DNA from: Isoetes taiwanensis
Lineage: Eukaryota > Streptophyta > Lycopodiopsida > Isoetales > Isoetaceae
NCBI GenBank assembly: GCA_021234155.1
Contig: JAJEKV010000005.1
Location: forward strand, 11,863,287-11,927,286
Direction of reading: 5' to 3'
Length of the DNA stretch: 64,000 bases
Shown here piece after piece: positions 3,597 through 61,650 of this stretch (positions are counted from its first letter, which is position 1; each line of letters starts with the position of its first letter). The position numbers and the translations under genes are program-made. The notes below the pieces were generated by a model, which ran no database searches, was not told the DNA's origin, and saw nothing but the letters and a program-made list of their open reading frames with translations.

Positions 3597-3786
3597 TTGT
3601 TTTGAAATATATATTTGAACTATTGTGAAAAGAAGTTGCTAACTTGGACATGGGAATGGGACTTTATTTAGAGATGTATATTTGAAATCTATATGAAAAC
3701 AAGCTTGAAAAGAATTAAATTAACACTATTTGTTGGTAGAAGAAGAGATTTTCCCATGGCAATAAATGCTTTTCAACCTAATGCTA
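3597..3786 (+). repeat. Direct repeat, downstream copy plus adjoining short repeat
   Basis: Positions 3597-3755 match 2101-2275. Directly after, 'catggcaataaatgctttt' and following bases (from about 3754) repeat a block at about 3271-3300 just downstream of the AP2/ERF stop codon. So sequence from both sides of the gene is found fused here, which suggests a deletion derivative or partial duplication of the same locus. Confidence 0.55.
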
Positions 3787-4860: not shown

Positions 4861-7800
4861 TCTAGGAGTTGGTTTTATGCCTTTCTAGGTTTGTCGAACA
4901 AAAAATCTTTTTGATGGATTTACGTCGTTTTCAGAGGTTTATAAGAATTGGTCTGCCTTTGTCGTGCAAGAATGTTTATCCAACTATAGATCATATTTAC
5001 CCATGCTTGCACAACTTTAGTTCCCACTTTATATGTTGTGAGTATTTCTGCACCTCAACTTTTCTATGATCTTTGTGGTGAGTTAAAGTATATGAGTGAT
5101 GATATTGTTGTCGTCCTTAGCTTGGAGGTAATTCAAGAAAGTTATTTCAGAGGATAGTATCTTGCTTCCATGTACCACATGGAAGAGTTCCTATCCATGA
5201 TGTATAGTTGGTAATTATACATGTTTTTACAACTAACATTTGATTTGGATTGTATAAATTTAGATGGCCATCATAGCGAGATGCTTCTTGTAGATGTTTT
5301 GTCTTTTGGATGCTTGCTTGGATCGTTCTTTAAGTTGATAAGCTTGGGTGGTTTGTGGTTTGGGTTTTTCGGTTAGGCATCTATTGTAATTTTTTGCTCT
5401 CTGCGTAGAGTGTGTTAGGTACTATTATTCCTTCCCGACCGCCATTTTATTTGTGATCAAAATTCTTGGCTGGTAGAGGTGTTGTCCATGGTTGCTTCGC
5501 TAGGTTGGTCTTTTTTGTTGCCTTTATAGATTCTTGATCCATTTTGATTTGTTAGGTTGATTCTTGTTTCTTGTATGATTGTATTCCTTTTTTCTTGGTT
5601 CTTCATGTTCTTGTATGTTGATATTCCATTTGGTAGTCCTTATGTTTGCACCATCTCCAGTTACAACATGACTCATTCTGTTGGTTACCTCATGTATGTC
5701 AACTATTGCATTGTTTCCTGTTTCTCCATGGTTTTTTCTTTTTTATAGTGGTGCCTTGACCACTTTACTCTAGAAACTCATTGAAACTTACAGGCTTATG
5801 TTCCAGGGACTAGTCGAGTCAACATGGATAGGGATTGGGATTAGTTCCAACTTGGCAACTACACAGTTCAATGACGGACTGACTTCTTTTTGTGGTGGTT
5901 TCCTAGGGCAGATCATGTGGCTTCATGGATTCAAACGACGTGTTTTTTTTAATCCATCACATCACTTCGGTATTTCTACCATGGTTAGTCATGTTATTAT
6001 AGATGCACTCTTCTTTGTTTTAATCATGATGCACCCTTCATATGTTTAGCATCAATTGTCTTAGTCTTGGTTCCTTAGGGTGTATAACTTAGTAGGTTTG
6101 ATTTCTGTCAGTTTTCCATGTGGTTTGTGTTCTGGATCGACCTTTGCATATAAACTTTGTCCACCATCTCCATAAGATTCTACATTTTCTCTCCTCTTGA
6201 GCTTTGCCTTAGCTACATTTCGTTATAGTAGGTGATTCGTGTCAGTTTGCCATGTGGCTTTTTATCTAAGCTTTTGAATCCCGTATCTTTATTGTTTCAC
6301 CCGTCATGGTTGTGGGCCTTTACATCTCTGTTTCCTACCACAATTAATCCTTTTCAAAAAGCTTTGCTTGCATAGTTAGGTAGACTTTTTTGCCTAGGAT
6401 CTTAGGTTTCTCCATCGTTGGTCTATTGGTACCATTTGTGGTGGTCGCTAATATTTGGTCATTTTACAGAGGTTTTACATTGGTGGCATTTTGTAAAATC
6501 ATTTGCCCATGTTTACATGGCTTTTACCAGAGCCATATCTCAGTTTGCATTCGCATTTATTATGGCTTGACCTGTTGGAGTTCTTGCTCAATTGATGTTT
6601 GTGAGTTTCAGTTGCATATTTTATGTTGTATTCTCTTATGTGGCTTGTTCCTTGTCATTGTTACGCCCACCCAGCCATGTGCGCCTTCAATTTTTTGACT
6701 CATTGATTTCTTTCCATTGCCATTATTCGTTCCCTTTACTACATCATTCATTATTCTCGTTTGTCCATTTTAGTTCCATTGGTCTTATTAAGCTCTAATG
6801 GCATTCCCTTTCTCGTTCCTTGTTAGTACTCACTCTTGCAGTTCGGGTTGTGTACGGGTTCCTTCACACTTCTTGTTACTCTGCTCTGCTCTGCTTGTCT
6901 CAATAGCTCCGAGTTGCTCCATCTGTTTTGCTTTTAGTGTTCTTGTCTCATGATTTTCTTAGTTGTAGTTTCTTCATTGCCCAATGCCTGATCGGTTCCT
7001 CTAGCCCTTGCCTTTCTCGTGGCATTCTCAGTCATAGTTTGTTCGGTTGCCCGATTTGTTCATCTTGCCCTTTAATTCCCAGAGAGGTTTCTATTGCCTT
7101 GAGTCTTATTCACCACCTCACTCTGCCTTGGTCGACATTTGATGGGTTTCTTTAGTTTTATGCAAGTTTCCTTCTTGTCGCTTCGTCTATACTAGTTTAG
7201 GCACCTGGAGACCTTGTCCTTTGCATAAGTTCCTTGGATCAATTTATGAACATTAGCACCTTCTTGAGAATGTTGTTTATTGTCTTAGCTTTACTGTTTG
7301 ACCATCCACTATCTGATCTCCACATTTTTTACCAAGCATCCCGTACATTATTCACTTCTCGGATATTTTCTTTCACGTCTAGTTGGTTCTTGCAGCCATT
7401 GGAATTTTGGCATGGCTTGTATCCTCGATATTGGCTAGGTTGTGCCTGTTTTGTAGATGTGTTCAACTTAGACTTGGCTTTCCTTGGTGTCCTTTGGCTA
7501 ATTTAACATTGTTGTGCCCATTGTGTCATTTGGTGTTATTGTTCTAGTTTATCACTTAGTTGGTGGTGTTCATTATGTTGTTCTCTCCATTATACATGTG
7601 TGATTTACATTGGAATTTAGTCTTTGATTTTTAGTGTTTTGTCATTATGGTTTTCGCTCTAGTTTGTTGGTACATTGATTCTTATGTTTTGTTATTCATG
7701 TGCTCTTTCTCGTGGTCGTAGTTCGTTGTGTGTTCGGTGCTCATGTCTGTTTATCTTCTACGCATTCCATTTTGCTCCCTAGTCTCGACTTTCTTATTTG

Positions 7801-7927
7801 TTAAAATATGGTTGGTTCGCATCGTCTTTAATCTGGTATCATCTTGTGATACGGTTTCAAGAGTGTTATTAACTCTATTTCCAAGTATTATGGGTTTTTT
7901 ATCCAACGTTGATTGGGAGCCATTGAT
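4861..7927. other. Strand-asymmetric T/C-rich tract without a recognisable gene
   Basis: About 3 kb of plus strand is conspicuously poor in A and rich in T and C, so many plus frames stay open for 60-100 codons without domains. Their translations are hydrophobic F/L/S/C-rich strings, which is what pyrimidine-rich DNA gives in any frame. The complementary strand would be purine-rich, as in the gag-pol sense strand of many retroelements. The tract may be a heavily mutated minus-strand retroelement, but I could not read a conserved motif in it. Confidence 0.4.
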
Positions 7928-8284
7928 TGGCGGCATATTCTTAGTATTGTGCCAGATCCATGGCTATTAATAATTTCCCAAAAATTCACCATGCCATTCC
8001 CTATATGGTCTCGATTGAAAATAGCATTTGCAGATTAAACCATAGCATTAAGAATTTCTACAAAACCATGGTCTCTCTGCTAAACCAGACTGCCTGTGCT
8101 AAGCCAAACCGCCCCAATCGACCCTGCACTGCTCCCCCAATCAATCCTGCAGTCAATCCAAAATTTCGAAATGCTTGAATCAATCCTGCTGCCAAAATCA
8201 ATCTTGCACAATCTCGGAATCAACCTCGGAATCAATCATCTTCATAGCAACTGAAAGCACCTGTACAACGTACAGACATGGCTG

Positions 8285-16976: not shown

Positions 16977-17692
16977 TTCTTACCCTAACTAAGTGTATGA
17001 TAAAAAACAAAAAAACGAAATGTTTCTAGAGTTTAGAAAATATGTAGGCATGATTATCAGCTACGATATCTAGAAAGAGAACGAAGGACTAAATGGCATT
17101 GGGATATAGACACAGATTTATAGAAGTCTAAAGATAAATAAGAAAATTCTCCACTTTTATAGAAAAGTTTTGGATATGGCAACCTTTGGGGGCCGATTTT
17201 CCATTCACGACTTACCTTACAGAAAACTGACCATTTAGTACTCTGCTCACAGTGGTTTGCTGCCTAAACAACCGCCCACATATTGAGAGCATAGCTCAAC
17301 AACAAGCAACAGAATCGTGGCCACCGTCTGAGCATGGTTGAAGTGCATTCGAGTTGAAATAGGGTTTTGTCTGCATCGGGTAGTTTTGGCAATCTATTCG
17401 GAGATTCTGCCTGTGTTCTCCAATCCATGTTTTCGAATTTTGCAATTGCATTATAAATCATTCGAAGAAAAGGGTTTTTAAATTCTAGTATTACCACTAT
17501 TGTTGAAGGTGTTCCTGGCAAAACATTCAACCTCAGTGGTTTAGAACCTCCAGGTTGCTCAAGGCAGAATGCTCAAACAATGAAAATCCCCAAGCAGAAT
17601 GCTCAAACAATGATTATGAACCACTTTCCCTAAAGGGAAAAAAGTCTGCCTAGCAAGAATAGATGCCAAATGCTGACCAGAGTAGGTTTAAT

Positions 17693-18777
17693 CGCATCGA
17701 TCTGAGACATCGGATCGACATTCTAGGATGGGGCGAGCATGCATGTCTTGCATGCATGCATGCGGCGCATGCCCTCTCTGGTTAGGGTTTCGCTATTTTA
17801 GGCGCGGTTCTGCATCAACGTCTCATCGGCGCTTCCTCTTCTCTCAGCAGTACCTTATTTCTCTTTGATTTGGTTCCGAGGGGGGGAGGGCTTCTTCACC
17901 TTGGTTTGGCCCATTTAGCGTTTACGTCATCTTTGTGGCATGCCCTTTCTCGACCTCGACCCTTCTTTAGCCTTCCGATCCTGTGACCTTAGGTCCTCGA
18001 TTCTAGTTTGATAAGGAAGTTCTCTCGGTATTCGGGCGGTTTGTTGGTTTCATCACGAGCCCCATTCTAGAATCGCATCGATCCGGAGACATCGGATCGA
18101 CATTCTAGGATATAGGCGAGCATGCATGTCTTGCATGCATGCATGCGGCGCATGCCCTCTCACAGTTAGGGTTTAGCTATTTTAGGCGTGGTTACGCATC
18201 AACGTCTCATCGGCGCTTCCTCTTCTCTCGTGATTACCTTATTTCTCTTTGAACCCACCCTCCCCCTTCTTTGTTTATTGTATTGTGCACAAGTTTACGT
18301 TTATCATGTTTTTCTTCCACCCATTTGGGTGATGCTTTTTCCACCCACAGGTGATGCTTCTCTGGTATGTTTGGGTTGTCTCGTTTGTTGTGTTGGTGAT
18401 GTGCAGGTACAGGTTGGCGAGCGGCATCTGCTTTGACTTCTTCATGCGGGGGTTTTTGGGAGCAATTTCTATGCCTTACGTTTGTCCAAGCCCCTTGCCG
18501 AAGGCTTATCACTAGGGTTTTTCCTCGAAAACCCGAAAGGGCGGGGTTTTTTAATCCCGGTGATAAGCTTTCGGCAGGTACATCAGCCACTCATCTTTTA
18601 GCATTGTATTTTTTTGGGGTCCAAATGTTATAATTGGATTTTCCCTTTATTTCGTGGGTAGTTCGCATGTGTGCGGCTACCCACTGTCCACCATTGTAGA
18701 AAATCTGCTGAGATGAATGAGAAGCCTATCTATCGCGGGCGGTTTGTTGGTTTCATGCGAGCCCCATTCTAGAATCA
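17693..18777. mobile_element. Nested insertion made of two related units
   Basis: The insertion splits a block that is continuous in the sister LTR (about 27040 on the plus strand). Two units share the same start (gcatcgatc, 'gacatcggatcgacattct', 'gcatgcatgtcttgcatgca') at about 17697 and 18075. They also share the same end (gggcggtttgttggtttcat, gccccattctag) at about 18070 and 18775. 'AATC' lies at both outer edges and between units, as a 4-bp target duplication or shared junction would. The middles differ. It carries RY-like gcatgcatg repeats. The class is unknown. Confidence 0.6.
18496..18576. repeat. Hairpin inside the nested insertion
   Basis: TGCCGAAGGCTTATCAC (18496-18512) pairs with GTGATAAGCTTTCGGCA (18560-18576) with one mismatch. 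An inner partial stem of CGGG/CCCG and GGTTTTT-like runs follows. Confidence 0.7.
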
Positions 18778-21263: not shown

Positions 21264-21578
21264 TGTACATTAGAGTACATAGATGTACATTAGATACATT
21301 GATGTACATTAGAGTACATTTTAGATACATTGATGTACATTAGATACATTGATGTACATTAGAGTACATTAGACACATTGAAGTACACCATGTACATCTC
21401 TGGCCTTTGGCCTTCTGTTTTCGGCTGTTGGCCTTTCAGTGCCATTTACTTCATGTATTTACAGATTACACGGAATACACAGAGTGAGAAGATTGCTCCT
21501 ATTCTATGATTGTTTTTTGTTTGGCTCACTTGATGTTGCAGGTTTGCATCAGTTCATAGCTGATACATTTTTCCAACA
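21264..21578 (+). mobile_element. 5' LTR of Ty1/copia element
   Basis: The right edge is defined by CCAACA at 21573-21578 followed by a primer-binding site. The left edge is tentative, at the first TGTACATTAG (21264) just after the gypsy fragment ends. The first 125 bp are tandem variants of 'gatgtacattagatacatt'. No matching 3' LTR is seen: the element is cut off near 24810. Confidence 0.65.
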
Positions 21579-21580
21579 AT

Positions 21581-21592
21581 TGGTATCAGAGC
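21581..21592 (+). promoter_or_regulatory. Primer-binding site (initiator tRNA-Met)
   Basis: TGGTATCAGAGC is the standard plant copia primer-binding site, complementary to the 3' end of initiator tRNA-Met. It primes minus-strand cDNA synthesis. It sits two bases after the LTR end, as expected. Confidence 0.9.
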
Positions 21593-21616
21593 AGGAAGAT
21601 CATCCTGTCTTGTACA

Positions 21617-23173
21617 ATGACTAGCAGATTTGGAGCTACTCTTTTGAGCACTGTAGAAGGCTACAATGGTGGACCAGGATTTCAAGTGTGGAAAGATGCT
21701 ATAAAGCACATCTTGGAAGTAGAGGACCTCTGGGATCTAGTTGATCCAGATGGTGGTACAAATGTGAACATAGACACATTTACAAGGTCAGTATCTGAAG
21801 GATCTGTTAACATGAGAATTAATGATGGTACAGGTCAGGCAAAAGCTGAAGGCAGCAATCTGGGAGGAGGAAGATCCTTGTACTCAAAGGTCAAAGAAAC
21901 CCAGGGGATAATCTCTTGTAAGGTCAGTCCCACTATCAGGCTTAAACTAAGAAATTTAAGTCCAAGACAAATGTGGTCTTTTTTGCTGAAACACTTTGAA
22001 GAAAAGACATCATCACAAATTGATTTGCTCAAAAATGAATTGAGGGGACTAAAATTAAGAGAGGGTGGAGATGTAGCAGAATTTTTTAACAAATTTGATA
22101 ACATTATTGCTGACCTATCTGGGGCTGGTGTGAATGTGTCAGAACGAAGTCAAGTGTTACAGATCTCTAGGGCTATTAGTGAAAACGAAAATCTTGCTCT
22201 AAATATTAGAAATATGAGTAAGACAAGGGAGGAAGCTGAAAACATTCTTAGAACAGAATTTGAACAAAAGAAAATAATGAGAGAAGGAGATGAGCCCACT
22301 GAAATTTTGTTTGCTGGAAAAAGAGACAAAATCACATGCTATAACTGTCATCAGATTGGACACTTTAAAAATGAGTGCCCTAAGCTTCAAAAGGAGTTTA
22401 ACTGCTACACTTGTGGAGGAAAAGGGCATGTGGCAGCAAAATGCCCCACTCCAAAAGATTATGGACGTGGCAAAAATCAAGGGTCTGCAATCAGAGGGGG
22501 AAGAGTAAACTCAAGCAGGGGACGAGGTAGAAAACCAGTTGAAGCTTATGTTGCTAAGGAAAAGGAGGAGAAAGATACATCTGGGAATCAAGATGATGAT
22601 GAGGTAATGCATGCTTTTGCTGTTATTGACAAAAATACAAATGCTAACAAATCTGATCCTCTAGTAGTTGATAGTGGAGCTGAGAGATCAGTAGTCCAAT
22701 CTACTGGTCTGCTCAAGAACTTAGCAACCACAAGTTCTAGAAGAATTCAAGTGGGAAATGGAAATCTTCAAGAAATCGAAGGGAAGGGGTTGCTGCAATT
22801 AGTAGATCTTGATGGAAATATTGTTGGCATTGAGAATGTTCTATATGTTGCTACAATCATAAAAAATCTGATTTCAGTTAGCCAGTTGGTAGATTTGGGT
22901 TATAGAGTTACCTTTTACTCAAAAGCTTGTTATATTTATCTTGGAAATGAATTGAAGTTCCTTGCAAAATGTTGTGGAAATTTGTTTCAAATGAATGACT
23001 CAATTTGCAATAGCTTGAATCTTTTAAATTCAGCTGAATTTGAGCTCTGGCATAACAGGTTGGCACATACACACTGTAACAATGTAAAATACCTTGCAAT
23101 GAAGGGATGGATCAAGTGCAATGATGTAAAGGCTGATAAATTCATGTGTGAAGGATGCATTCTAGGAAAATAA
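21617..23173 (+). CDS. Copia gag-protease-pre-integrase polyprotein segment
   Basis: A 518-codon open frame carries the N-terminal part of a Ty1/copia polyprotein. Residues about 20-215 resemble the UBN2/gag capsid region. Two CCHC zinc knuckles follow (CYNCHQIGHFKNEC and CYTCGGKGHVAAKC), then a basic RG-rich linker. The aspartic protease motif VVDSGAE is near residue 351. The GAG-pre-integrase zinc domain has LWHNRLAHTH and later CEGCILGK at the end. These parts would package RNA, mature the polyprotein and start the integrase. A single stop codon ends the frame, and the integrase continues in another frame at 23155, so the polyprotein is broken there. It begins 25 bases after the primer-binding site, consistent with a true gag start. 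Confidence 0.9.
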   Translation: MTSRFGATLLSTVEGYNGGPGFQVWKDAIKHILEVEDLWDLVDPDGGTNVNIDTFTRSVSEGSVNMRINDGTGQAKAEGSNLGGGRSLYSKVKETQGIISCKVSPTIRLKLRNLSPRQMWSFLLKHFEEKTSSQIDLLKNELRGLKLREGGDVAEFFNKFDNIIADLSGAGVNVSERSQVLQISRAISENENLALNIRNMSKTREEAENILRTEFEQKKIMREGDEPTEILFAGKRDKITCYNCHQIGHFKNECPKLQKEFNCYTCGGKGHVAAKCPTPKDYGRGKNQGSAIRGGRVNSSRGRGRKPVEAYVAKEKEEKDTSGNQDDDEVMHAFAVIDKNTNANKSDPLVVDSGAERSVVQSTGLLKNLATTSSRRIQVGNGNLQEIEGKGLLQLVDLDGNIVGIENVLYVATIIKNLISVSQLVDLGYRVTFYSKACYIYLGNELKFLAKCCGNLFQMNDSICNSLNLLNSAEFELWHNRLAHTHCNNVKYLAMKGWIKCNDVKADKFMCEGCILGK

Positions 23174-23946
23174 ATAGATTACCATTCAAGCAGTCAAAAA
23201 CCAGATCTAAAGAAATCATGGAACTAGTGCACACCGATTTGTGTGGTCATTTGAATGTAAAGGGGAGAACAAATAAAAGGTATTTTATCTCCTTCATTGA
23301 TTATCATAGCAGAAAAACCAAATGTTACTGTCTGGAAAGAAAATCCCAAGCATTGGCAGCATTCAAACAATATGTTACAGAAATGGAAAGAGAAACTGGG
23401 AAAAAGCTAAGGTGTATCCGATCTGATCGAGGAGGAGAATACAAATTTAAGCTTTTTTGTATTACTAATGGCATCAAAAGGCAATTAACTTGCAGGTACA
23501 GCCCTCAACAAAACGGAGTAGCAAAAAGAAAGAACAGGACCATTATGGATGCAGTAAGATCAATGATCAAACACAGTGGGCTGCCAAACTACTTATGGGA
23601 GGAGGCCTTGAAAACTACAATTCTTGTACAAAACAAACTTCCATCATCAAGCTTAAGAGGTAATGTACCAGATCTGATATGGTCAATGGGAAATGAACAG
23701 ATAAATTATAACATGTTCAAAACATATGGATGTCTGGTATATGCTCATATTCCAAATGAATTGAGAAAGAAACTTGACAATAAAGCTGAGATAGGTTTTC
23801 TTGTTGGATATGATGAGGAAACAAAGGGGTATAGAATCTATATCCCAGAAAGCAAGAAAGTAATAATTAGTAGAGATGTTTTATTTGATGAAGACACTCT
23901 GTACAAGGACAGATTTGGAAAAAGCAAAAAGGAAATATGGATGTAA
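23155..23946 (+). pseudogene. Copia integrase segment, catalytic Glu replaced
   Basis: A 263-codon frame overlaps the preceding one by 19 bases. It holds the DDE integrase core: first Asp in LVHTDLCG, second Asp in IRSDRGGEY, and the block where the third catalytic acid should be. In copia integrases this last block reads NGVAERKN; here it is NGVAKRKN, so the glutamate is a lysine (one G-to-A change in the codon). A C-terminal segment with KKVIISRDVLFDE follows, as usual. The frame then joins directly to late reverse transcriptase, with the RT fingers missing. The integrase is very probably inactive. Confidence 0.88.
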
Positions 23947-46137: not shown

Positions 46138-49012
46138 GTCAATGGTGCCTCTCCAACTCAAGATGGTGTGCAACATATTGAAAAGAGCAATATCAATGAA
46201 AAACCAACTCCTAGCAAGAATGTTGAAGAAAAACAATTAGTCCTCTATAGTAGGGTGCAATGGAGGAACAAGAAGGTGACAATCATGCACAAGTGCAATA
46301 AGGAAATAGTAGGCCAAGGAGTCATTGTGCTAGCAGATCCTGGTCAAGCTGTTAATGATGAAAGGCTAGGGGAAGACAATATTGGTATTGCAATTTCGAT
46401 GTTGGAAGACAACTGGAAAGGTAAAGGTTTGGGTGACAAGGAATGTTTTGGTTGTGTCAAGCAATTGGAGGTTCCTTGCATCATGGCATGGCCTATAAGT
46501 AGTGTTCAATTTGTGGAGGATTATATTTTTCCAGAGCCTGAGGTTGTTGGGGACAATGATTGTCTTGATATTGATCCATTGACAGTTGGAACTCTAAACC
46601 TAGGCAAAAGGGAAGAAGTATCAGTTGCCAGACATTATCCTAGCAAAAGAGCCAAGTTGAATAGTGACACCAAACGTGAGACAATGGTGAAGGTTAGGGG
46701 CTCAGATTGTTGTTGGAGTGCTTGTATGCAATTATTTACAATAGAACAATTGGTGGAAGCAAGAGCCACTTTTCAAGAGTACACTGTTGATGAGAGGAGG
46801 ACCTACATGTACACAATCTTCGAGCATGCACTTCAAGATGAAAGAAACCCAAACAGAAAAAGATACCCTTTGCTAGGCAAATGGATATGTGCAAAAGCAT
46901 GGCAGAGTATCCATGCAATTCCAACTTCTTCATGGCATAATTGGCAAAAAAATCAAAAGTGAGGGGAACAGGATTGCTTTACATGGAAATAATGGTTTGT
47001 TGAGACCAACAGCTAGGACCTTGGCTGCCAGGGAGATATTTGAAAAATATATTGATTTCAATGCAGAGTCTATGCCACACAAAAGTAGAAGGGATGAAAA
47101 GGGAAGAGCAGTTGTTGAGAAAAGGTTGCCATCACATTGTACTCAAAAGAGTATTTTGGAAGAAGTGAATTCCCTACTTCGAGAATTGGGAATTCTTCCA
47201 ATATCCCAACCTAGCTTTAGTAGGTTATGGAAGAAGCATTTCAATCATGTCACCATAGCAACTTCAAACAACTTTGCAAAGTGCAATTTATGTGCTAAGT
47301 TGAAGGAGACTCTTGATAAGATTGTGCAACCTAGTCAAAGGGCTAGGATAAGGGAGCATATGAAGGACCATATGACTGACCAACTATCATGTAGATCATG
47401 TTATTGGATGTGGAGGACTTTATCTGCATTGGAACCCAATAAGATGGACCAGCAAAAGACTTGTCTTCCACAATTCAAGTACATACCAAAGTCATGTGGA
47501 AGATCATACCCTTTACAGATCTCAATGACTGGGGCAATCTTGCATGGGCAGAATCAAACCTACTATGGCCATTTTAGTTTGGAGTTGTGGAGTGATGGTC
47601 CAGATTTTCATATTGGGAGTATCATGAGGTGTTTGAGAAACTATGAAAATGGATACAATGGTCACCTCCAGGACCTTACAGCTAGCCAGGCACTACATAA
47701 AGCATTGTTAGATGGAAACCCTAACAATATTGAAAAGTTCAGCAAGGCAAGGTTTAGGAAGCATGGGTCTAATGAACATGTTGGAGCTTCAACTTCACTT
47801 GCTAAACCTCAAGATCTACCCAAAAGGTTTCTCTTGCAACTTGATAATTGTGCTGGCCAAAATAAGAACAGGTGGATGTTTTCTTTCCTATCCTACTTAA
47901 CAGCTGTGGGGATATTTGAAAGAGTTAATTTAGGGTTTCTTATGCCCGGGCATACCCATGAGGATGTGGATGCATTATTTGGCAAATATAGTTGTATCTT
48001 GAAGCGACAACAAGTGACCAACTTTCCTAGGCTAATGGAAATCTTGCATGAATGCACTACTCCAAACCCTATAGCTTCTCTCATAGAAGAAGTGCCCGAT
48101 TGGAAGAGCTTTGTGGATGGTTATACATTGGATCTTGAAGGTCATTCCAGGCCTCTGCAGTTCACTTTTTTTGGTGAGAGATGGGATTCCAATCTTCCAA
48201 TGGAAGATGAGACCTTCAGAGGATGAGTGGAGAGGAGGGAGGAAATATGGCGTAGAGATGAGAATGGCAAGCCTATGATACCTCTAGGTCAACCAAAAGC
48301 TTTAAAACCCACTGAAGAAGTGAAGCAATTGGGATTGACTAAGGAAGGAATCCTAGACTATATAAAGCATTGGCAAACCAATCCGGATGACACCAACCGT
48401 GCCTTGGTGGCTTCTTGGAAGAAGGTGATTAACCCGTTGGGGAGATAGACACATCCTCGATGAATTGAAAGAAGGGTGGTTGCCTAAAACTAGGTGGAAG
48501 ACCTTAGCAGTCTTGAGGATTTTGATGACACCGTAAGTAGCATTCGCAAACAATATGCTCCTCCTCCTTCCTCGACAAACACTATGTTGGTCCTAAGAAC
48601 AATAGGCCAAAGTTTCTAGGCATGGATGCTTATGAACCTTCCACCGACTTGGAATGCCACCAATTTGTGGTAGTAAAGCCAGCAGATTTAGATACATATC
48701 CAAAGTGGTTGGGGTTCACTATCTCCGATATTTGCAAAGAAGAAGGTAATATTAACTTCAACCATGTGGGGGTGGAATGGTGGTGTCCAAAGGCATCAGT
48801 TGACCAACGTATCGGATAAAGAAAGGTACTCAGATTGTTGGACAAAGAGATGGAGGAGAAATCCGAGTGATCCTGATCTTTGGCTAGACTATGAAAGTGT
48901 TTTGTACTCATGGACTCCAAACACTATTCCAGCTAGAAATGCGAGAATTACAATGCCTCAGGATATCAGGAAGAAGGCTATGATATCATTGGGGGTGCTT
49001 GAAGAAAGTTGA
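46138..49012 (+). pseudogene. DUF7869-like element protein (putative transposase), frame-damaged
   Basis: Coding text opens at 46138 after a splice acceptor. Part 1 (to 46962): a region around EIVGQGVIVLADPGQAVND, then a segment with NRKRYPLLGKWICAKAWQSI. A frame slip in an A-run near 46950 leads to part 2 (to 48226): IALHGNNGLLRPTARTLAAR, NFAKCNLCAKLKETLD, SMTGAILHGQNQTYYGHF, RFLLQLDNCAGQNKNRWMF, then LGFLMPGHTHEDVDALFGKY, and EEVPDWKSFVDGY. Parts 3-4 (48227-48448; about 48619-49012), in shifted frames, hold ECHQFVVVKPADLDTYPKWL and DCWTKRWRRNPSDPDLWLDY. The QLDN...QNKN and GHTHEDVD blocks are what I remember of DUF7869 proteins, found in large numbers in ferns, other plants and invertebrates and thought to be element-encoded. 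An RNase-H/DDE-like role is inference. At least three breaks make it inactive as read. Confidence 0.6.
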
Positions 49013-50055: not shown

Positions 50056-50056
50056 C

Positions 50057-50112
50057 TTATCTTCTTATCGTTATACGAAGATAAATTCAATTGTCAAAAC
50101 CAGCAAGCTAAC
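50057..50112. other. Nested inverted repeats at the 3' edge of the DIRS-type element
   Basis: TTATCTTC (50057-50064) pairs with GAAGATAA (50077-50084) around a 12-base spacer. GTTAGCTT (50051-50058) also pairs with AAGCTAAC at about 50105-50112. The spot lies between the gypsy remnant and the recombinase gene. It could be an element end or recombination site; chance is possible. Confidence 0.35.
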
Positions 50113-50227
50113 TAGAAGAGGTAAAGGGTAGAAGAAAGCACAAGAGAAAGAAAGCCACATCTGGGCATCTCCACTAACAACAACAAGAGACACAAATGCT
50201 GAAAAATAGAGGCAGCCGAGTCACGGG

Positions 50228-51262
50228 TCATTTATGGGGAGGGGGAGGGTAAGAGGAGTCCAACAAAAGGGCTAAAGCACTGGGTTCCATAGGACCTAAA
50301 CCTAAAGAACGGGAAACAAGCAACTGCTGCTGCAAGGAAGGGCAAATATAACCATCTTTAGCAGACTCAGAACGCCAGCGACCATGAGCCTTGAAGATTC
50401 TATCTGGAACATTCAAAGCGGCTGCCGAAGTGGCTCCCCCCCCTTCTTGCAGAATGGGTACCAAAGACACTAGCATCTTCACCAATGGCATAAAGACAAT
50501 GCTTGTACCAAGTCCTCAGAGTAGAATAAGAAACAGACTTTCTCCTCAAAAAACAACCATGACGCGTCACACGGACACCTCTGATCAAATGGCCACCAGC
50601 CGCACCATCTACTTCAGCAAAATTTCCCAAATTCAACAATCTTTCCAGAAGGCTAACAGGGCAAAAAGGACCAGAGAGACGTGCAATAGAGATCCAAGCA
50701 CCAACTCCCAACTGGTCTGTCTTTGAGGAATGAATAAAAATCGCGTGGGTATCCAAAATCAATATCTCATTCCAAAGCAAAGAAAGCAACTCCTTACTAC
50801 GCAGGAAGGCGACAAAGGTAAGAACAATAGCTGTACATCTCATAATGTCCAAAAGAGAAGCTGCAGGATGAGCAAATTGCTCGAAAAGCTTGCGGATCAT
50901 ATGAGGAAGAATGGGTTGCTTCTTCTTAAGCGACGGCTCTTAGCCAAATCTCTGGCAAGGGTAACTAGAGGATGATCTGTAGGCTTCGGGTAACCAGCAA
51001 GAATGTGATAAAAAGCAACAGCAGCAATGGTAGAGCTGACACGCGCCAATGGATTAGAAAAGGAAGACATGAGGAAAGTGAGGAAAAGGCAAATAGTAGA
51101 AGAAACAGCAGGTAGGTAAGCTAGGTTCTTGGATTTGCACCAATTCTTGAAAAGATTCCAAGCATGTTGATAACCTCTCAAAGTACTTCCAGATCTAGAA
51201 GACACCAACAACTGCTGAAAACAATTCTTCAACTCAAGCAACTCATTGTCACCATCCAACAT
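50228..51262 (-). pseudogene. Tyrosine recombinase of DIRS/Ngaro-type retroelement
   Basis: Read leftward in three frames. The N-terminal SAM-like core-binding domain (51262-50897) has STLRGYQHAWNLFKNWCKSK then FLTFLMSSFSNPLARVSSTI. The catalytic domain (50900-50400) has LPHMIRKLFEQF, box I arginine in VAFLRSKELLSL, and box II GTHSARRGG. The C-terminal part (50491-50228) has NVPDRIFKAHGRWRSESAKD followed by GYI with the nucleophilic tyrosine. So R, H-x-x-R, H/W and Y are all readable. Two frame changes split it, one near 50910 and one in a run of G at about 50439-50446. Such enzymes integrate circular cDNA by site-specific recombination without leaving target duplications. The gene lies directly downstream of RT-RNase H, the classic DIRS order. 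Homopolymer sequencing error could account for one break. Confidence 0.88.
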
Positions 51263-51309
51263 TAGCCAAAACTCTGAACAAAAAACATCTGCAAGAACAA
51301 CAAACTCAC

Positions 51310-52536
51310 CTAATTAGTATTAACAACTCGCAGCGCAATAATAGGACTTGTTGGCTTCTGAAGCGGCAACTTAGATGATGCGCTAGGTACAAGACCTTTT
51401 CCACCAACAGGAAAGTACAAATGATCTACAATCTTCGAATCCCATTCTCCAGTATCATCGTGAAGGGCTGGCCACCATGGAGCTGACTCCCAATGAAAAA
51501 CCACCAGAGTGCAGTTGGCTTTGCAGGCTCTAGCAAACGTAAACGCTTTAAAAGTCAAGGCCGGTGGGGGAAAGCAATAGTTATTTGCACCATACCAAGA
51601 CTGAGAAAAAGCATCCGAAGGGCAAGGATCTCCCGGGATAGGGTGCCAACAATTGAAATTAGGTAGGAGATGGTTGTCTAAGTTGGCAAAACGATCCCAA
51701 TCATGGGGTCCCCATGCTAGGTCAATGATGCGAAAAACCTCAGGCGTCAAACTATAGTCATCAAAATCCCTCAGCTTAGACAAGTAATCGGCCCACTGAT
51801 TGAGACACGTGGAATCCAAGCGGGTTTCAGGATGATGTTATGACGAAGACATAAAGTAAAGATCCGAAGACACAGACAATGGAGGGTCGGGATCTGAGAG
51901 CCCCCTTTGTTCAAAATATAGAAGCAATTTAAGGAGTCTCCATATGCAAGCAGACATCTTCCAGCAAGGTTCACAGCATGGAGCTCAAGGAAATGGGCTA
52001 GGGCGGAAAGTTCCCTGGCTGTAGATGATAAAGTTTGCTCGGTTTCATCAAAAGTCCCACTAAACTCGTTACACATAGCAGTATCATGAACCCACACACC
52101 CCACCCAGAGCCACTGGCATCATAGGATAAAGAAATGACAAGAGAAACTGGTTCCCAAATGAGAGCATAGTTCAACAAATCGAACCACTGCGACCAAGCA
52201 TCGATCTCAACGACAGCAAGTGGGCTCAAGTGAACAATCTGGGACCATGAGGCAATGGATGCATAAAGATTCAAAAGGTTAAAACTAAGGAGTTTACAAA
52301 AAGGGCCAAACACTGCTTTGAATTAAGCAATCATACCCAGGAAGGAAGCAAATTTGCGAGCAGGCACCCTAGTCTCCTTAGAAAGCGACCCGGCCAAATC
52401 CAAAAACTTTTGTCGGCGTTGTGGTGCAATGGATAAGAGTCCTGACTTAGAATTGACCATATACCCTAGGAACTTCACCTCAAATGAGAGCTCAAGTTGA
52501 CACTTGTGTGGAGCAATAACAAACCCAGTTACAAAA
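51310..52536 (-). pseudogene. DIRS/Ngaro-type RT thumb, RNase H and linker
   Basis: Read leftward. The segment 52536-52316 gives the RT end: GFVIAPHKCQLELSFEVKFL, then GYMVNSKSGLLSIAPQRRQK, then KFASFLGMIA, stop. Next (52313-51771) comes RNase H: first acid in SLSYDASGSGWGVWV, then ELSALAHFLELHAVN, AYGDSLNCFYILNKGGSQIP, and NIILKPAWIPR. The linker region (51819-51310) has HDWDRFANLDNHLLPNFN then the CFPPPAL and VVFHWESAPWWPALHD blocks that precede recombinase in DIRS elements. The RT palm and fingers are missing: the element is cut at about 52537 by the 2.73-kb tandem array. One stop and one frame overlap occur. Function would be cDNA synthesis and RNA removal. Confidence 0.85.
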
Positions 52537-53045
52537 GGACTTTCAGTAATGACTCTATTGTTTCTACCAGTTAAAGTGTGGTTTTATGAAGCCATAAGAG
52601 CTTGCAGAGACTTTTTGTCTTTATGCAAGACGCATCATTTCTGCTTCCAACAATAAGAACTAGCATATGATGAGAATCCATGAGCACCTACGCAAGCATC
52701 ACCGTTATTTTTGAACTAACCCCTTCTTTTTTACAGTTAATCAAATGGTGCAATGCGAAAATAAACAACACCTTAGTTATGGCGTTGCCATTCTTTCTGA
52801 TACACATCTCCTATCTGTAGGAATCCTTCCTGCCTAGTTCCTCCTTATAGGCTTCCAAACGAGCTCCCACCTCCGGAGGCGACAATGCATGCGATCTGGG
52901 CAGTGCATGCAAAGTCCCAGTTTGCAACAAAACCCATGCTGGCACCGGTTAGCCGGTTTTGAAATGGATTGCCAAGAACAGCCGTGACCGCCAATTTACA
53001 CCCTATAACAAGTTTTTAGCAGTCATTGACATATTCTGGCATATA

Positions 53046-53550
53046 CTAGTATATACTTGAAATATGCCATAAACCCACATAAACAAGGTCCAATATTCGT
53101 ACCATAGACACCAAAGTAACACATCCATGACATGAATTAGGTTCAATAGGCATATTGTTCATCATTGTATTTGCCAATTCTACATTACCTGCATGCCCCA
53201 GGAGTACCATCACGGAGTTATAATGTTCTGTTATTGGTGTGATTCCAGTGATCTCGAATATGGAGACAAAACAGTGACAACCTTCACCTTCCATACCAGC
53301 CGTGGAAAATGCACAAAGAAGGTTGACAAGAGCAACTTTATCTAGTCTCATGCCTTGCAACTGCATTCTGTGAGATAAACTAAGGGCTTCCTTGCCATGA
53401 CCATATTGAGCATAAGCTGCAATCATAGCAGTCCACAAAATTGCATCTCTTCTTGGACTAGCATTAAACACACTGATTGCATCTTGCAGGCATCCACAAT
53501 CTCCATAATTTTAGAGTAGAGGTCAGAAAAGCAGTCAACAAATTAGAACC
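53046..53550 (-). pseudogene. PLS-type PPR protein fragment (repeat copy 1)
   Basis: The 141-codon frame 53471-53046 encodes PPR motifs: RRDAILWTAMIAAYAQYGHG with KEALSLSHRMQLQGM, then DKVALVNLLCAFSTAGMEG, then EHYNSVMVLLGHAGNVELAN and NNMPIEPNS. Upstream, the text YGDCGCLQDAISVFNASP is in frame back to a stop, and LLTAF / DLYSK pieces lie in other frames. So the gene is cut by frameshifts and lacks its N-terminal repeats. The downstream E/DYW tail is missing. Intact PLS-class PPR proteins enter organelles and bind RNA for C-to-U editing. This is a dead fragment amplified with the tandem unit. Confidence 0.85.
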
Positions 53551-55777
53551 ATATGTTGCATATGCAATTTGGATAACTGCAGAGTCTGCCTAAGAGACCT
53601 TACATTTCCTCAGCATTCCACTAGCAGTCTCTCTTTAAGTATATATCAGATTATTTGCCATTATCATGTGGGTCCGTTGCACGTATTAGAATGGAACCTC
53701 TCAAAAAGGGATTTATACACTAACTTTCCTCATAAACATGTTCGATGTTATGGGAAAGTAGTTTATAAGAGATTCCAATGTGGATCAAAAGCAACAGCAT
53801 CTCCAATATGCTATCAATGAAACTTTGAAGCCTTATATGGAACTACAACCTCAAGAAATGAGCAAGTCAGGTAGGAACAAGTTGTATGTGAATCAGACAA
53901 ACATAACGACAGGCAGTTCAAAGTTTTCAAGACAAAATACTATGTTATTATTCATCTTTAAATTCCCAAAATGGATGCTCACTTGAAAGACTAAACAAGG
54001 GTCAAGTCTTGTCATCTGGTACCTACCACAGTAACTCCCATGAAAGCTAAACATGGAAATCCTCTTAATATTCAGTATCATTCCATTCTTTAATTAGGAA
54101 TATGTTGGGTCCAAATACTGACTGGCAAAGCATCACGCTTAAATTTAAATATTGTTCAGAGAAATGCCGGTAACTTCTTTTAATCTATGCAACTGTTAGT
54201 TATACTGTTCTATAAAGATCAAGGGTTCTAACAATTACTATGACTGCCCGAGATCGTGACTGCAAAAGATCTTGAAGAAACTTCCACCTAGGATCAAGTC
54301 CTACCCACCTCCAGTGAATTTGGCCAATCTTTCAGATCGGTCTTCTCTCCACTATATACAAAAGAAAACACAGTTGATAAGATCTCGCTGTAGAATAAGG
54401 AGATTCACAATTATTCCCTATCATTATAACTTGAATACCATTTACTGAGAACAACCGTTGGGCTTTGACAACACTTTATATATTAAACACTGTAAGATTG
54501 GCCTAAATAATTTCGCAACTGGCTTATGAACATTAAAGACTTAAGATTTCATAAATACCTTAAATGCTTTAAATGTATTATAAGCATAAAATTCCACACT
54601 ATATGACTTTACCATTTTTGACCTCTGTTTGGAGAGCTAGAACCCAATGCGACCTACAAGAATGCCTTTGACAGTTAAAATCCAGGAGATACAGAGCAAT
54701 ATTACTAGGAATGAATTAACAAATTGTAAAAACTTTTTGAATGCCATTATTCAGTACCATATCCAGGTGCATACTTAGCTTATAGAAAGCAAACACCACA
54801 AGAATTCTTAAGAATCACCTCAAGATATCATGCCAAAGAAACACGGTATCAGTACAATCCGGAACCCACATCAAGAAATACATAATGATTTGTAACTCAT
54901 TGGCCTTTATTTAGCTGTAGAACTAATCCTATTGAAGACTGATTGTCTACTCATCAATACCATGAAAGAACTACCGAAACATTCCCACCATTTTGGCATC
55001 ATTTAAATGCTTATCCACTCACCTAACAAGACATGTATGACTAACACAGCTAGAATTGCCTCCTGCAAACTGGCATAGCTTCCATAGCCAAAAGAAAGGG
55101 AAAACTCGATACATATTTTAAATGCCTAACATATGACCTAGGCTTCCATGTCCTTGGGATCCATATCCCAATTACAAACAAGGAACATAGATTATAACTG
55201 ATTAAACCTCTTTAACATAACTCCTTCAAAGACAAATGCTGAATGATCAGAATTCAGAGCTTACAATGGGACTTTCAGTAATGACTCTATTGTTTCTACC
55301 AGTTAAAGTGTGGTTTTATGAAGCCATAAGAGCTTGCAGAGACTTTTTGTCTTTATGCAAGACGCATCATTTCTGCTTCCAACAATAAGAACTAGCATAT
55401 GATGAGAATCCATGAGCACCTACGCAAGCATCACCGTTATTCCTGAACTAACCCCTTCTTTTTTACAGTTAATCAAATGGTGCAATGCAAAAATAAACAA
55501 CACCTTAGTTATGGCGTTGCCATTCTTTCTGATACACATCTCCTATCTGTAGGAATCCTTCCTGCCTAGTTCCTCCTTATAGGCTTCCAAACGAGCTCCC
55601 ACCTCCGGAGGCGACAATGCATGCGATCTGGGCAGTGCATGCAAAGTCCCAGTTTGCAACAAAACCCATGCTGGCACCGGTTAGCCGGTTTTGAAATGGA
55701 TTGCCAAGAACAGCCGTGACCGCCAATTTACACCTTATAACAAGTTTTTAGCAGTCATTGGCATATTCTGGCATATA

Positions 55778-56282
55778 CTAGTATATACTTGAAATATGCC
55801 ATAAACCCACATAAACAAGGTCCAATATTCGTACCATAGACACCAAAGTAACACATCCATGACATGAATTAGGTTCAATAGGCATATTGTTCATCATTGT
55901 ATTTGCCAATTCTACATTACCTGCATGCCCCAGGAGTACCATCACGGAGTTATAATGTTCTGTTATTGGTGTGATTCCAGTGATCTCGAATATGGAGACA
56001 AAACAGTGACAACCTTCACCTTCCATACCAGCCGTGGAAAATGCACAAAGAAGGTTGACAAGAGCAACTTTATCTAGTCTCATGCCTTGCAACTGCATTC
56101 TGTGAGATAAACTAAGGGCTTCCTTGCCATGACCATATTGAGCATAAGCTGCAATCATAGCAGTCCACAAAATTGCATCTCTTCTTGGACTAGCATTAAA
56201 CACACTGATTGCATCTTGCAGGCATCCACAATCTCCATAATTTTAGAGTAGAGGTCAGAAAAGCAGTCAACAAATTAGAACC
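55778..56282 (-). pseudogene. PLS-type PPR protein fragment (repeat copy 2)
   Basis: The 141-residue translation is identical to the copy at 53046-53471, offset by 2732 bp, with the same upstream frame break. The identity shows that the duplication is recent rather than that the fragment is under selection, because the neighbouring non-coding DNA is about as similar. Confidence 0.85.
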
Positions 56283-58558
56283 ATATGTTGCATATGCAAT
56301 TTGGATAACTGCAGAGTCTGCCTAAGAGACCTTACATTTCCTCAGCATTCCACTAGCAGTCTCTCTTTAAGTATATATCAGATTATTTGCCATTATCATG
56401 TGGGTCCGTTGCACGTATTAGAATGGAACCTCTCAAAAAGGGATTGATACACTAACTTTCCTCATAAACATGTTCGATGTTATGGGAAAGCAGTTTATAA
56501 GAGATTCCAATGTGGATCAAAAGCAACAGCATCTCCAATATGCTACCAATGAAACTTTGAAGCCTTATTTGGAACTACAACCTCAAGAAATGAGCAAGCC
56601 AGGTAGGAACAAGTTGTATGTGAATCAGAAAACATGACGACAGGCAGTTCAAAGTTTTCAAGACAAAATACTATGTTATTATTCATCTTTAAATTCCCAA
56701 AATGAACGCTCACTTGAAAGACTAAACAAGGATCAAGTCTCGTCATCTGGTACCTACCGCAGTAACTCCCATGAAAGCTAAACAGAGAAATCCTCTTAAT
56801 ATTCAGTATCACTCCATTCTTTTATTAGGAATATGTTGGGTCCAAATACCGACTGGCAAAGCATCACGCTTAAATTTAAATACGGTTCAGAGAAATGCTG
56901 GTAACTTCTTTTAATCTATGCAACTGTTAGTTATACTGTTCTATAAAGATCAAGGGTTCTAACAATCACCATGACTGCCCGAGATCGTGACTGCAAAAGA
57001 TCTTGAAGAAACTTCCACCTAGGATCAAGTCCTACCCGTACCTTCACCTCCAGTGAATTTGGCCAATCTTTCAGATCGGTCTTCTCTTCACTATATACAA
57101 GAGAAAACACAGTTGATAAGATCTCGCTGTAGAATAAGGAGATTCACAATTATCCCCTATCATTATAACTTGAATACCATTTACTGAGAACAACCGTTGG
57201 GCTTTGACAACACTTTATATATTAAACACTGTAAGATTGGCCTAAATAATTTTGGAACTGCCTTATGAGCATTCAAGACTTAAGATTTCATAAATACCTT
57301 AAATGCTTTAAATGTATTATAAGCATAAAATTCCACACTATATGACTTTACCATTTTTGACCTCTGTTTGGAGAGCTAGAACCCAATGCGACCTACAAGA
57401 ATGCCTTTGACAGTTAAAATCCAGGAGATATAGAGCAATATTACTAGGGATGAATTAACAAATTGTAAAAACTTTTTGAATGCCATTATTGAGTACCATA
57501 TCCAGGTGCGTACTTGGCTTATAGAAAGCAAACACCACAAGAATTCTTAAGAATCACCTCAAGATATCATGCCAAAGAAACACGGTATCAGTACAATCCG
57601 GAACCCACATCAAGAAATACATAATGATTTGTAACTCATTGGCCTTTATTTAGCTGTAGAACTAATCCTATTGAAGACTGATTGTCTACTCATCAATACC
57701 ATGAAAGAACTACCGAAACATTCCCACCATTTTGGCATCATTTAAATGCTTATCCACTCACCTAACAAGACATGTATGACTAACACAGCTAGAATTGCCT
57801 CCTGCAAACTGGCATAGCTTCCATAGCCAAAAGAAAGGGAAAACTCGATACATATTTTAAATGCCTAACATATGACCTAGGCTTCCATGTCCTTGGGATC
57901 CATATCCCAATTACAAACAAGGAACATAGATTATAACTGATTAAACCTCTTTAACATAACTCCTTCAAAGACAAATGCTGAATGATCAGAATTCAGAGCT
58001 TACAATGGGACTTTCAGTAATGACTCTATTGTTTCTACCAGTTAAAGTGTGGTTTTATGAAGCCATAAGAGCTTGCAGAGACTTTTTGTCTTTATGCAAG
58101 ACGCATCATTTCTGCTTCCAACAATAAGAACTAGCATATGATGAGAATCCATGAGCACCTACGCAAGCATCACCGTTATTCCTGAACTAACCCCTTCTTT
58201 TTTACAGTTAATCAAATGGTGCAATGCAAAAATAAACAACACCTTAGTTATGGCGTTGCCATTCTTTCTGATACACAGCTCCTATCTGTAGGAATCCTTC
58301 CTGCCCAGTTCCTCCTTATAGGCTTCCAAACGAGCTCCCACCTCCGGAGGCGACAACGCATGCGATCTGGGCAGTGCATGCAAAGTCCCAGTTTGCAACA
58401 AAACCCATGCTGGCACCGGTTAGCCGGTTTTGAAATGGATTGCCAAGAACAGCCGTGACCGCCAATTTACACCTTATAACAAGTTTTTAGCAGTCATTGG
58501 CATATTCTGGCATATACTAGTATATACTTGAAATATGCCATAAACCCACATAAACAAG

Positions 58559-59004
58559 GGCTTGCCCCCCTAGGGGCAACCCAAAAAAGTGCACTTTGGA
58601 AAAAAAAACCCTGAACCTTCTCCAACACAAATCCACGCCAGTTTCCAAACAAAACCCAGGTGCCACCATCATGAAAATACGTATTTCAATACGAATACCA
58701 TTTTAACCTTCCACAATCTTATGTTAGAAAAAAACTGTTTTTGATTGCGCACACATTTTGTGGAGCGTCGGACAAACAAAGGAAATACACTCGTCGAATG
58801 AAGGTTTAGTGGTAGGCCAAAATGAGGAAAAGAATTGGCAGATAACGGGTGCTAAAAACACCAATAATGGTCTTTTTTCTTTTGACGGTGGAAGGTCACC
58901 CTCCTCTAAATCAAATAAATTTGCTCCCGAAGGGCCGGCCACCCTTTCAATCTCATTTCCAAGCTCAGCCATGGCGACCCATTTGAGGGGCCGGACGGAG
59001 GGCG
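58559..59004 (+). promoter_or_regulatory. GC-richer upstream region of the two-exon gene
   Basis: This region follows the tandem array. It contains a palindrome TTGCCCCCCTAGGGGCAA-like at about 58562 and an upstream ATG at 58971 opening a 41-codon frame that overlaps the main start. No clear TATA box is visible. It would be the promoter and leader of the next gene. Confidence 0.35.
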
Positions 59005-60091: not shown

Positions 60092-61650
60092 CTTCATTTT
60101 ATTCTTTCCCTACATTTTGATAATGAGATTGTATTAGTCACATGAATTTAATTGAATAATTTTGATAAGAAGAGAAGTTTCATATGTAAAAGATGTTTTT
60201 GGCCTTTCTTTTGCATAGACAATGTATGCAACAATAACACATAAAATAATATAGTGCCATATTCAAGTTTGATCTTTAACTTCAATCATGAATTTGTACA
60301 AAAAATGGCCTTCCATGATGGATCATTATGAGAACGGTCTTTTGAAATTGGTGAAGCCATTTCGTCCGGGAGCCTTTGAAGGAATTAGATCTTCTATAGT
60401 GATGAAGAGGAAAGCAACTTCATATCTATTGGACTTTCTTCATTATTTGTTACCAAATAATTTAGCATTTGTTAGACAATGTCACTCAAATTTGTGATAT
60501 GCAATATATCAATGTTATTGTCTTAGAAAAAAGAACATCATATGTTGAGAGCTTGATAAAGCAGGAACTTGTATCTTGTTCTATTGTTATATTGAATAAA
60601 ATTATTGGAAACTTATTTCGTGTTTAATGAGGATTTTGAGAGGGTGCTCCAACTTGCATTTTGGGTAGTACTATACAACCTTGCCACCATGGGCTATGTT
60701 CTACTCTTGAAGACCCCTCTACATGCATCTCTTTTCTTGAAAACCTTTCGAGGCAGGGGTTTTTTAATCCTAGTAGTAATGATTGTACTAGCCCATTGTA
60801 TGGGTCCCATGACCTATTGGTCTCCGTGGACGTTAAAAAAACTATTCTATTCTATTCTATTCTTTATTAAAGGCCTTACTCATGAAGCTCCCTCTTGCCT
60901 AAAAAACAAACGACACAATCACAAAAAGTCGACTAGTGATATCTATTTTGGCCTCTGTGTGTACATATTAATTTTTCTTAAAGGGATTTGGGTTTTTCTA
61001 TTGTGCTTCCTGGCAATGGCGATCGGGAATACATAAGTCCTAGATTGAATTTCAATCACTGGCAGGGATTAACACTAACAATGTTAAAGACTAACCTATA
61101 TACAAGCAAAACTTTCTCTAGCCTATCTAGATTGAGTAATTTTTATTTTTCGAATAGAGAATGATAAGAGAAGCCTTATGCTATCAATTATTCAAAATCT
61201 GAATTACCTTCTTCATCCCACCTATTACCTGCTGTCGAACCTACCTGAGCACATAGCTCAATAGATGCGCACCAATAAAATAAGATGCACATTGTTCTGC
61301 ATCTAATGCATCTAAAGTTCGATGTGTGGGGTAAAAAAAGTTTTAATTAGGTTGTCTCCCTTTCCCGTTAGGCTTTCCTATATTTCCGACATGCAAACCC
61401 TGATGATGCATCTTTTAGAAGGGTCTTATCTATGATCTAGCAAATCATTTATCCCCTTATGCAACTTGCAAAAGGTTTGCTCAATAATGATTCTATTGTT
61501 CCAGACATATTGAATCATTATGGTGGACTATGTAGATGCTTGCTTAATGAACCTTTTACAAGTGTTCAGTGAATTAAAAACATATCCAGTTAATGAAAAA
61601 GATTACATTACACACAAGGGTTACTAGATATTGGAGTATTCAATGTTCTT
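60092..61650. other. Intergenic, nothing recognised
   Basis: Small plus-strand frames at 60288-60497 and 60605-61036 carry no known domain. The segment 60740-60830 (including 'gtttttta.tcc') resembles short pieces at 5940 and 18545, so it is probably repeat-derived. A (ttcta) microsatellite of about five units lies at 60842-60866. Confidence 0.45.

Follow-up and report, generated by a model that had tools for sequence, protein, structure and literature searches.

Background

Retroelements that encode a tyrosine recombinase (YR) can be sorted by a published key, in which a methyltransferase domain combined with split direct repeats denotes a PAT element, and internal repeats downstream of the YR combined with a Gag zinc finger denote the echinoderm form of Pat1-like elements; the available text of that source describes the key characters as homoplasious (PMC4157794). 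By the same text, Ngaro elements have split direct repeats downstream of the YR and are without the methyltransferase domain, and the green-algal PAT elements Kangaroo and Toc3 are without a Gag zinc finger, Kangaroo having an inverted YR in addition (PMC4157794). Here we describe a YR retrotransposon copy (the index copy) on the minus strand of a 64-kb stretch of the genome of the lycophyte Isoetes taiwanensis, the whole of which we call the window. With a probability of about 0.9, we conclude that the index copy is a dead PAT-like member, within the DIRS group, of large and recently active families of this genome, which would act by the replication model proposed below.

The known distribution of such elements in plants is uneven. 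As far as their available texts go, a 2011 survey of 274 genomes found green plants devoid of DIRS1-like elements and placed PAT-like families in Chlamydomonas and Volvox (PMC3266345), and a 2022 review excludes land plants from the range of DIRS (PMC9033089). Automated annotations list 361 DIRS elements (45 kb) in Ceratopteris (PMC6890710), assign 2.42% of the Dracaena genome (PMC6294377) and 8.26% in Cunninghamia (PMC13415678) to DIRS, and contribute a few DIRS entries to a plant transposable element atlas (PMC8729191); the accessible parts of these four sources give no YR or repeat structure for the labels. The word DIRS is absent from the main texts of the genome papers of I. taiwanensis (PMC8566536) and I. 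sinensis (PMC10541799), and in the open-access literature, supplements excluded, we found no description of structurally intact YR retroelements in a lycophyte.

Compared with these systems, the Isoetes elements have the published layout of the echinoderm form of Pat1-like elements and belong to the DIRS group, not to Ngaro, a placement made by the key and its homoplasious characters. Their likeness to SpPat1 is one of layout, drawn from the published description and not from sequence, which differs; they also differ in their lycophyte host, in an RNA hairpin found in four of six families and in a swarm of non-autonomous copies. Like Kangaroo and Toc3 they are PAT elements of the green lineage, whereas their YR is not inverted and their best-scored copies encode a CCHC knuckle.

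The index copy and its relatives

Judged from its sequence, the index copy is a dead, 5'-truncated, frame-broken YR retrotransposon copy. It falls in family A of the six (A to F) into which fetched copies were sorted by identity. Its homology to relatives elsewhere in the genome is continuous, shows no larger gap and lies far beyond chance, the nearest fetched copy (L003) being 95.1% identical over 2,488 nucleotide columns. An earlier, sequence-only reading had placed an element at 50056-52536; an element does lie there, within the slightly narrower homology limits given in Table 1. The copy is truncated inside the reverse transcriptase (RT), ends on the other side exactly at the terminus of repeat B, and is missing repeats A2 and B2. 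The minus-strand order proposed in that reading, namely RT end, RNase H, linker and YR, agrees with the alignment of the relatives' frames, and the core YR residues (R, K, H-x-x-R, H and Y) can indeed be read by eye in the window frames. Its count of one stop was correct, but its two frame changes become three against the relatives' open frames, with one accompanying the stop in RT-RNase H and two in the YR. Since Pfam searches of the window pieces alone are weak, identification of the index copy rests on its better-preserved relatives: among six pieces, RT_RNaseH (E 0.0044) and Phage_integrase (E 0.037) were matched below their curated cut-offs, and the remaining four had no meaningful match.

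Searches of the assembly (1,658,258,908 bases in 1,110 contigs) returned numerous relatives. The RNase H piece of the index copy matched at least 151 places (150 of 722 candidates scored), its YR piece at least 153 (150 of 1,052) and the RT core of the distant family F at least 151 (150 of 9,087), while a profile search with PF00589 gave at least 58 matches, most of them without internal stops (148 of 246 candidates scored); these counts are lower bounds and overlap one another. The 22 element loci that we fetched are not a random sample, high scores and long open frames having guided their choice; in 19 of them the RT core of 170-171 amino acids is open. On sequence grounds, the genome holds a large, recently active set of YR-retrotransposon families with many well-preserved and recently inserted copies.

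Contamination, or a single event of very recent transfer with an alga or microbe as donor, might be considered, given that DIRS and PAT elements are documented in chlorophytes (PMC3266345, available text) and that the sequenced plants were grown under water and non-axenically, according to the accessible text of the genome paper (PMC8566536). We regard this as very improbable, because the elements sit on many long contigs of up to 53 Mb. Moreover, the elements fall into six families with within-family dS reaching about 1 and signs of purifying selection, and one incomplete family D copy (L009) interrupts what reads, by eye, as the frame of a long interspersed nuclear element; a transfer long ago would still be compatible with these observations.

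Repeat architecture, insertion and age

The search for full-length copies with split direct or inverted termini that the sequence-only reading had proposed yielded ten copies with all four repeats among the 22 selected loci (L002, L006, L007, L008, L010, L016, L018, L019, L020 and L021, from families A to F), and the repeats are of the split direct kind. These copies are 4,879-6,945 bp long, with A1 at the left end, B1 followed directly by A2 downstream of the YR, and B2 at the right end, so that the relatives read A1, a Gag with CCHC knuckle, RT-RNase H, a methyltransferase-like domain, YR, B1-A2 and B2. At their junction B and A share a few bases (AA in families A to D). The ten copies show no target-site duplication: anchored flank repeats are 1-3 nt long (mean 1.8), against a mean of 1.83 and a maximum of 6 in mismatched flanks.

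Dating by repeats presumes that every transposition renews both members of each repeat pair. The A and B pairs of the ten copies together differ at 14 of 2,351 positions, and the per-copy divergence K of 0-0.016 corresponds to 0-1.2 million years at 6.5e-9 per site per year, the rate used, in the text available, by the C-fern paper (PMC6890710). The recent activity suggested by the sequence-only reading is thus borne out for the relatives, whose repeat pairs are nearly identical, and not for the index copy itself.

Several loci depart from the regular arrangement. L005 has an A2-spacer-hairpin-like sequence upstream of Gag; we considered a circularly permuted insertion, with A2-spacer-B before Gag and B1 at the end, and dropped the idea because the B-A junction is not clean. 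The index copy and L005 both end at the B terminus without a following A2. L001 carries a second B-A junction at its left end (oriented 3385-3553), as if inserted at or joined to the end of another element, and L018 is bracketed, roughly 80-120 bp outside the element ends, by a 427-bp direct repeat of 96.7% identity (oriented 136-560 and 7559-7985).

Encoded proteins and classification

Pfam RVT_1 matches all six aligned RT frames of relatives (best E 6.5e-18), and Ty3 RT is the nearest PDB match to the RT (E 1e-13). RVT_3, RT_RNaseH_2 and RT_RNaseH each match four of the six members at E about 0.002-0.005, below the curated cut-offs where these are shown. Phage_integrase exceeds its cut-off in two of the YR frames tested, and in an alignment of seven YRs K, HxxR, H and Y are invariant, the first R being replaced by H in L011. 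Cre is the nearest PDB match to the YR profile (E 6e-10) and also the nearest to the predicted YR structure (Foldseek E 1.1e-10; predicted local distance difference test (pLDDT) 69.5, predicted template-modelling score (pTM) 0.53). By eye, a zinc ribbon, looked for at the YR N-terminus with the ALOG-type YR origin of a partly available source in mind (PMC3537659), is not apparent there. Upstream lie Gag frames with a CCHC knuckle: zf-CCHC is above cut-off in four family C copies (L007, L008, L016 and L018), sub-threshold in L010, L011, L019 and L020, and without a match in the 207-residue frame of L021. In the subset of Gag, RT and YR frames run against Pfam, neither a DDE integrase nor an aspartic protease was found.

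Ratios of nonsynonymous to synonymous substitution (dN/dS) of 0.07-0.13 in RT-RNase H and YR, obtained for 16 within-family pairs with dS under 1, point to purifying selection on both within families. Only open frames entered this comparison (13 RT-RNase H and 11 YR); among the 24 pairs listed, six have saturated dS and no ratio, and two with dS over 2 (ratios 0.05 and 0.08) stand outside the quoted range. Therefore the lineages have kept coding over a long divergence, while the youngest insertions are recent.

The segment that the sequence-only reading had called a linker is present between RNase H and YR and is, by profile comparison and predicted fold, a methyltransferase-like domain. It was modelled from the window's own 163 residues (51313-51801) together with eight relatives (pLDDT 71.9, pTM 0.73), and VIA-align matched the model to KsgA (Z 8.9), CAPAM (8.6) and Escherichia coli Dam (7.5), scores to be read knowing that unrelated models often reach Z 7-8; the top Foldseek match was the cap adenosine N6-methyltransferase 6irx (E 0.009). 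We take the domain, judged by its motif, to be likely inactive.

An outside reference was provided by L034 (JAJDDB010000011.1), a 5,841-bp contig in a metagenome-assembled genome of Phycisphaerales and the one relative among 40 pattern matches in an RT-core scan of bacterial and archaeal genomes; viral contigs, scanned three times with RT and YR alignments, gave 77, 34 and 125 pattern-matching stretches, none encoding a relative. L034, probably a eukaryotic stray in a bacterial assembly, is by structure a complete-looking DIRS1-like element: it encodes Gag, RT-RNase H-Dam (Dam E 1.1e-5) and a YR (E 7.7e-6), and bears inverted terminal repeats (317-406 with 5442-5531) and an internal copy of one end (5239-5276). 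It shares with the Isoetes elements a Gag, an RT-RNase H-methyltransferase with the motif WGPHxxDRFASxxN, a YR and an RT that is 38% identical, and differs in its inverted terminal repeats and internal complementary region, as against split direct repeats, and in a YR that cannot be aligned. The methyltransferase regions of the two are 33% identical over 114 columns (hhalign probability 98.5%, E 2e-15). An RT tree of 26 sequences separates, with support of 100/100, a group of 19 Isoetes copies and L034, the latter on a long branch, from Ty3 and five Gypsy RTs of Isoetes.

The methyltransferase-like linker points to the PAT part of the DIRS group rather than to Ngaro; by the key, DIRS1 proper is excluded because the repeats are direct in all ten complete copies, and Ngaro because the methyltransferase domain is present. 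The proposal, by the sequence-only reading, of a DIRS-group element in a land-plant genome agrees with the grouping of the RT with L034, the split direct repeats, the lack of target-site duplication and the spread over many long contigs. It is conceivable that the element is of Ngaro type after all and that the segment following RNase H is a mere spacer, as Ngaro elements share the split direct repeats and the internal repeats downstream of the YR (PMC4157794, available text) and the Dam signal in Pfam is sub-threshold. We consider this improbable, given the predicted methyltransferase fold and the match to the corresponding region of L034, where Dam is recognised. Still less credible, and already contradicted by the complete copies, is a Crypton or domesticated recombinase lying beside an unrelated RT fragment: in relatives from families A to F, RT-RNase H and YR lie side by side within one set of terminal repeats, although YR-like frames of about 410-420 residues also occur in the genome. 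Such frames occur in L013 (G000:C1041:9434000-9443999), which has no large RT frame nearby, and in about 15 of the 58 PF00589 rows; they match only the C-terminal half of PF00589 and are perhaps Cryptons or a domesticated recombinase family.

Some results weigh against a PAT-like element of the DIRS group. L034 is the sole DIRS reference in the RT tree and sits on a long branch flagged by treekit, and its YR does not match the Isoetes YR profile (hhalign probability 2.3%), so that this comparison gives no evidence of a shared origin for the two YRs. No Pfam family is found in the YR of L006 (E up to 0.5) or L018 (E up to 0.1). Pfam Dam matches only two of six members, at E 0.0055 or weaker and under the cut-off, and the Foldseek search with the methyltransferase-like model had no match at E 0.001 or better. 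Finally, the incomplete L009 (oriented 1476-8220) has a 12-nt repeat, GGTTTGAGTAAG, on both sides and no B2.

A conserved hairpin near the 3' end

Families A, B, C and F, between which protein identity falls to about 40%, have in common a near-invariant block of about 46 nt just before B2. Its predicted fold is a hairpin with a U5/U6 internal loop between GGG:CCC and CCUCG:CGAGG stems, situated 101-210 nt before the element 3' end in nine copies. In the alignment 98.4% of cells are paired, compared with 38-54% in slid controls, and four of five sequences folded alone give the hairpin, L012 folding otherwise. The invariance of the core is partly a product of selection, because the alignment was built from copies found by mutual similarity; covariation in the outer stem serves as a control for that bias, with four pairs changed on both sides, a number reached by 4 of 500 shuffles. 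A covariance model (R1), built from sequences including 10 of the 12 positive loci and the window row at 18506-18568, finds the hairpin in 12 of the 22 element loci (L001-L003, L005-L008, L012, L016, L018, L021 and L023). It finds none in L004, L009-L011, L014, L015, L017, L019, L020 and L022, some of which are without a full 3' end, nor in L013, L034 and five Gypsy loci, the latter being 3-kb pieces around the RT that may miss the 3' end. A scan of families D and E for an ENE-like shape gave nothing convincing, which is weak evidence of absence because the scan also missed L021 and hit 2-6 of 50 simple shuffles. An exact 35-mer from the hairpin occurs 958 + 977 = 1,935 times in the genome, and its reversed control 0 + 0 times.

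The predicted hairpin resembles the element for nuclear expression (ENE), an RNA element shielding poly(A) tails. The available text on the Arabidopsis Copia element Evade describes an ENE that engages poly(A) in a triple helix and increases both the stability of the RNA and transposition (PMC12501189). In both cases a U-rich internal loop, bordered by G-C stems, lies towards the 3' end of a retrotransposon RNA; the ENE of Evade has four U-rich tracts and belongs to a long terminal repeat element (PMC12501189), whereas the predicted Isoetes hairpin has one tract pair and belongs to a YR retroelement.

A possible if less probable alternative is that the hairpin is some other cis element, involved for example in packaging, priming, 3'-end formation or circle formation. 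Such a role would fit a core that is near-invariant beyond the U tracts, a minimum free-energy fold in which two of the five 5' Us pair with AA, the deviant fold of L012, the lack of an Rfam match (five loci gave sub-threshold microRNA matches only) and the absence, by model, from families D and E. The U5/U6 loop between the two G-C stems, the covarying outer stem, the short distance to the 3' terminus and the precedent of an ENE in the 3' untranslated region of a plant Copia (PMC12501189, available text) argue instead for an ENE-like element.

Short non-autonomous elements

Ten places of the 35-mer were examined, the first on low-numbered contigs in the printed list. Each of the ten aligns with YR-element loci for 100 bp or more, with E values of 1e-10 or better, and six of them group with the window copy at 18.5 kb into a short family. 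L026, L030, L028 and the window element have complete A1-B1-A2-hairpin-B2 sets in about 0.8-1.1 kb, with little coding room; the window therefore holds a second, non-autonomous relative (Table 1). Elements similar to it match family F at the B1/A2 junction.

Table 1 Features of the index copy and of the second element, in window positions
Feature	Position	Strand	Basis or remark
Index copy, whole preserved part	50057..52528	-	blastn against L001-L006 stops at 52528/52526 and 50057/50056
Index copy, RT end and RNase H, one internal stop	51807..52526	-	tblastn, L003 frame residues 211-450, 95.8% identity
Index copy, methyltransferase-like domain (predicted Dam/KsgA-type fold)	51313..51804	-	tblastn against L003, 97.6%
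Index copy, YR, two frame changes	about 50243..51307	-	tblastn with L006 and L001 YR frames, three pieces
Index copy, terminal repeat B	50057..50204	-	84% to B2 of L002; unrelated DNA directly after terminus
Second element, non-autonomous, A1-B1-A2-hairpin-B2	17690..18776	+	split direct repeats
Repeats of second element	A1 17690-17868 / A2 18071-18252; B1 18033-18074 / B2 18736-18776	+	
Predicted ENE-like hairpin of second element	18506..18568	+	model R1 88.1 bits, E 4e-21 (row itself in model); fold z -6.0

Proposed replication cycle and implications

Beyond what is observed directly, that is, the domains and their order, the repeats, the lack of duplication, the recent repeat divergence, the purifying selection and the hairpin covariation, we infer a replication cycle with the following steps: (i) Synthesis of RNA and cDNA. 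RNA would be transcribed from A1 through B2, and Gag, with its zinc knuckle, and RT-RNase H would produce the cDNA. (ii) Formation of a circle. The internal B1-A2 junction could supply the terminal sequences lacking at the RNA ends, giving a double-stranded circle with a B-A junction. (iii) Integration. The Cre-like YR would recombine the circle into the target via a short core, leaving no target-site duplication. (iv) Use of the proteins in trans. The short non-autonomous elements with the same repeats may borrow the proteins. (v) Protection of the RNA. In four of the six families the RNA would carry the hairpin close to its 3' end, where the hairpin probably clamps the poly(A) tail into a triple helix, as an ENE does, and would thereby slow decay.

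A broader view, towards which we lean with some reserve, is that of a thriving PAT-like superfamily comprising six families and at least some 1,900 copies, autonomous and non-autonomous, that bear the hairpin, with insertions younger than about 1 million years and RNAs that share one near-frozen, poly(A)-clamping ENE; this would be the first YR retroelement with an ENE and the first well-documented DIRS-group lineage of land plants. What makes the case more interesting than the broken index copy alone is the host clade together with the copy numbers and the ENE-like hairpin. With several young, constrained families in a lycophyte, the timing of losses or gains of YR retroelements among land plants becomes open to study, and Isoetes becomes a plant in which the circle-and-recombinase integration of such elements could be examined. 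Automated DIRS labels in seed plants can be judged against copies that have real YRs and split repeats. The shared ENE-like hairpin, if true, would link RNA-tail protection to YR elements, a link of which we found no mention in the available texts of the literature searched.

Minor features of the window

Exactly at the truncated end of the index copy begins a tandem array (52529-58559) in which a unit of roughly 2.73 kb is repeated about 2.2 times at 98.4% identity; the array contains a piece of a pentatricopeptide repeat gene at 53046-53510. The hairpin model scores weakly (21.6 bits, E 0.017) at 60719-60778. Elsewhere in the window are Copia-type gag and integrase frames at 21560-23946 and a 449-residue frame with DUF7869 (E 1.1e-40) at 46877-48226.

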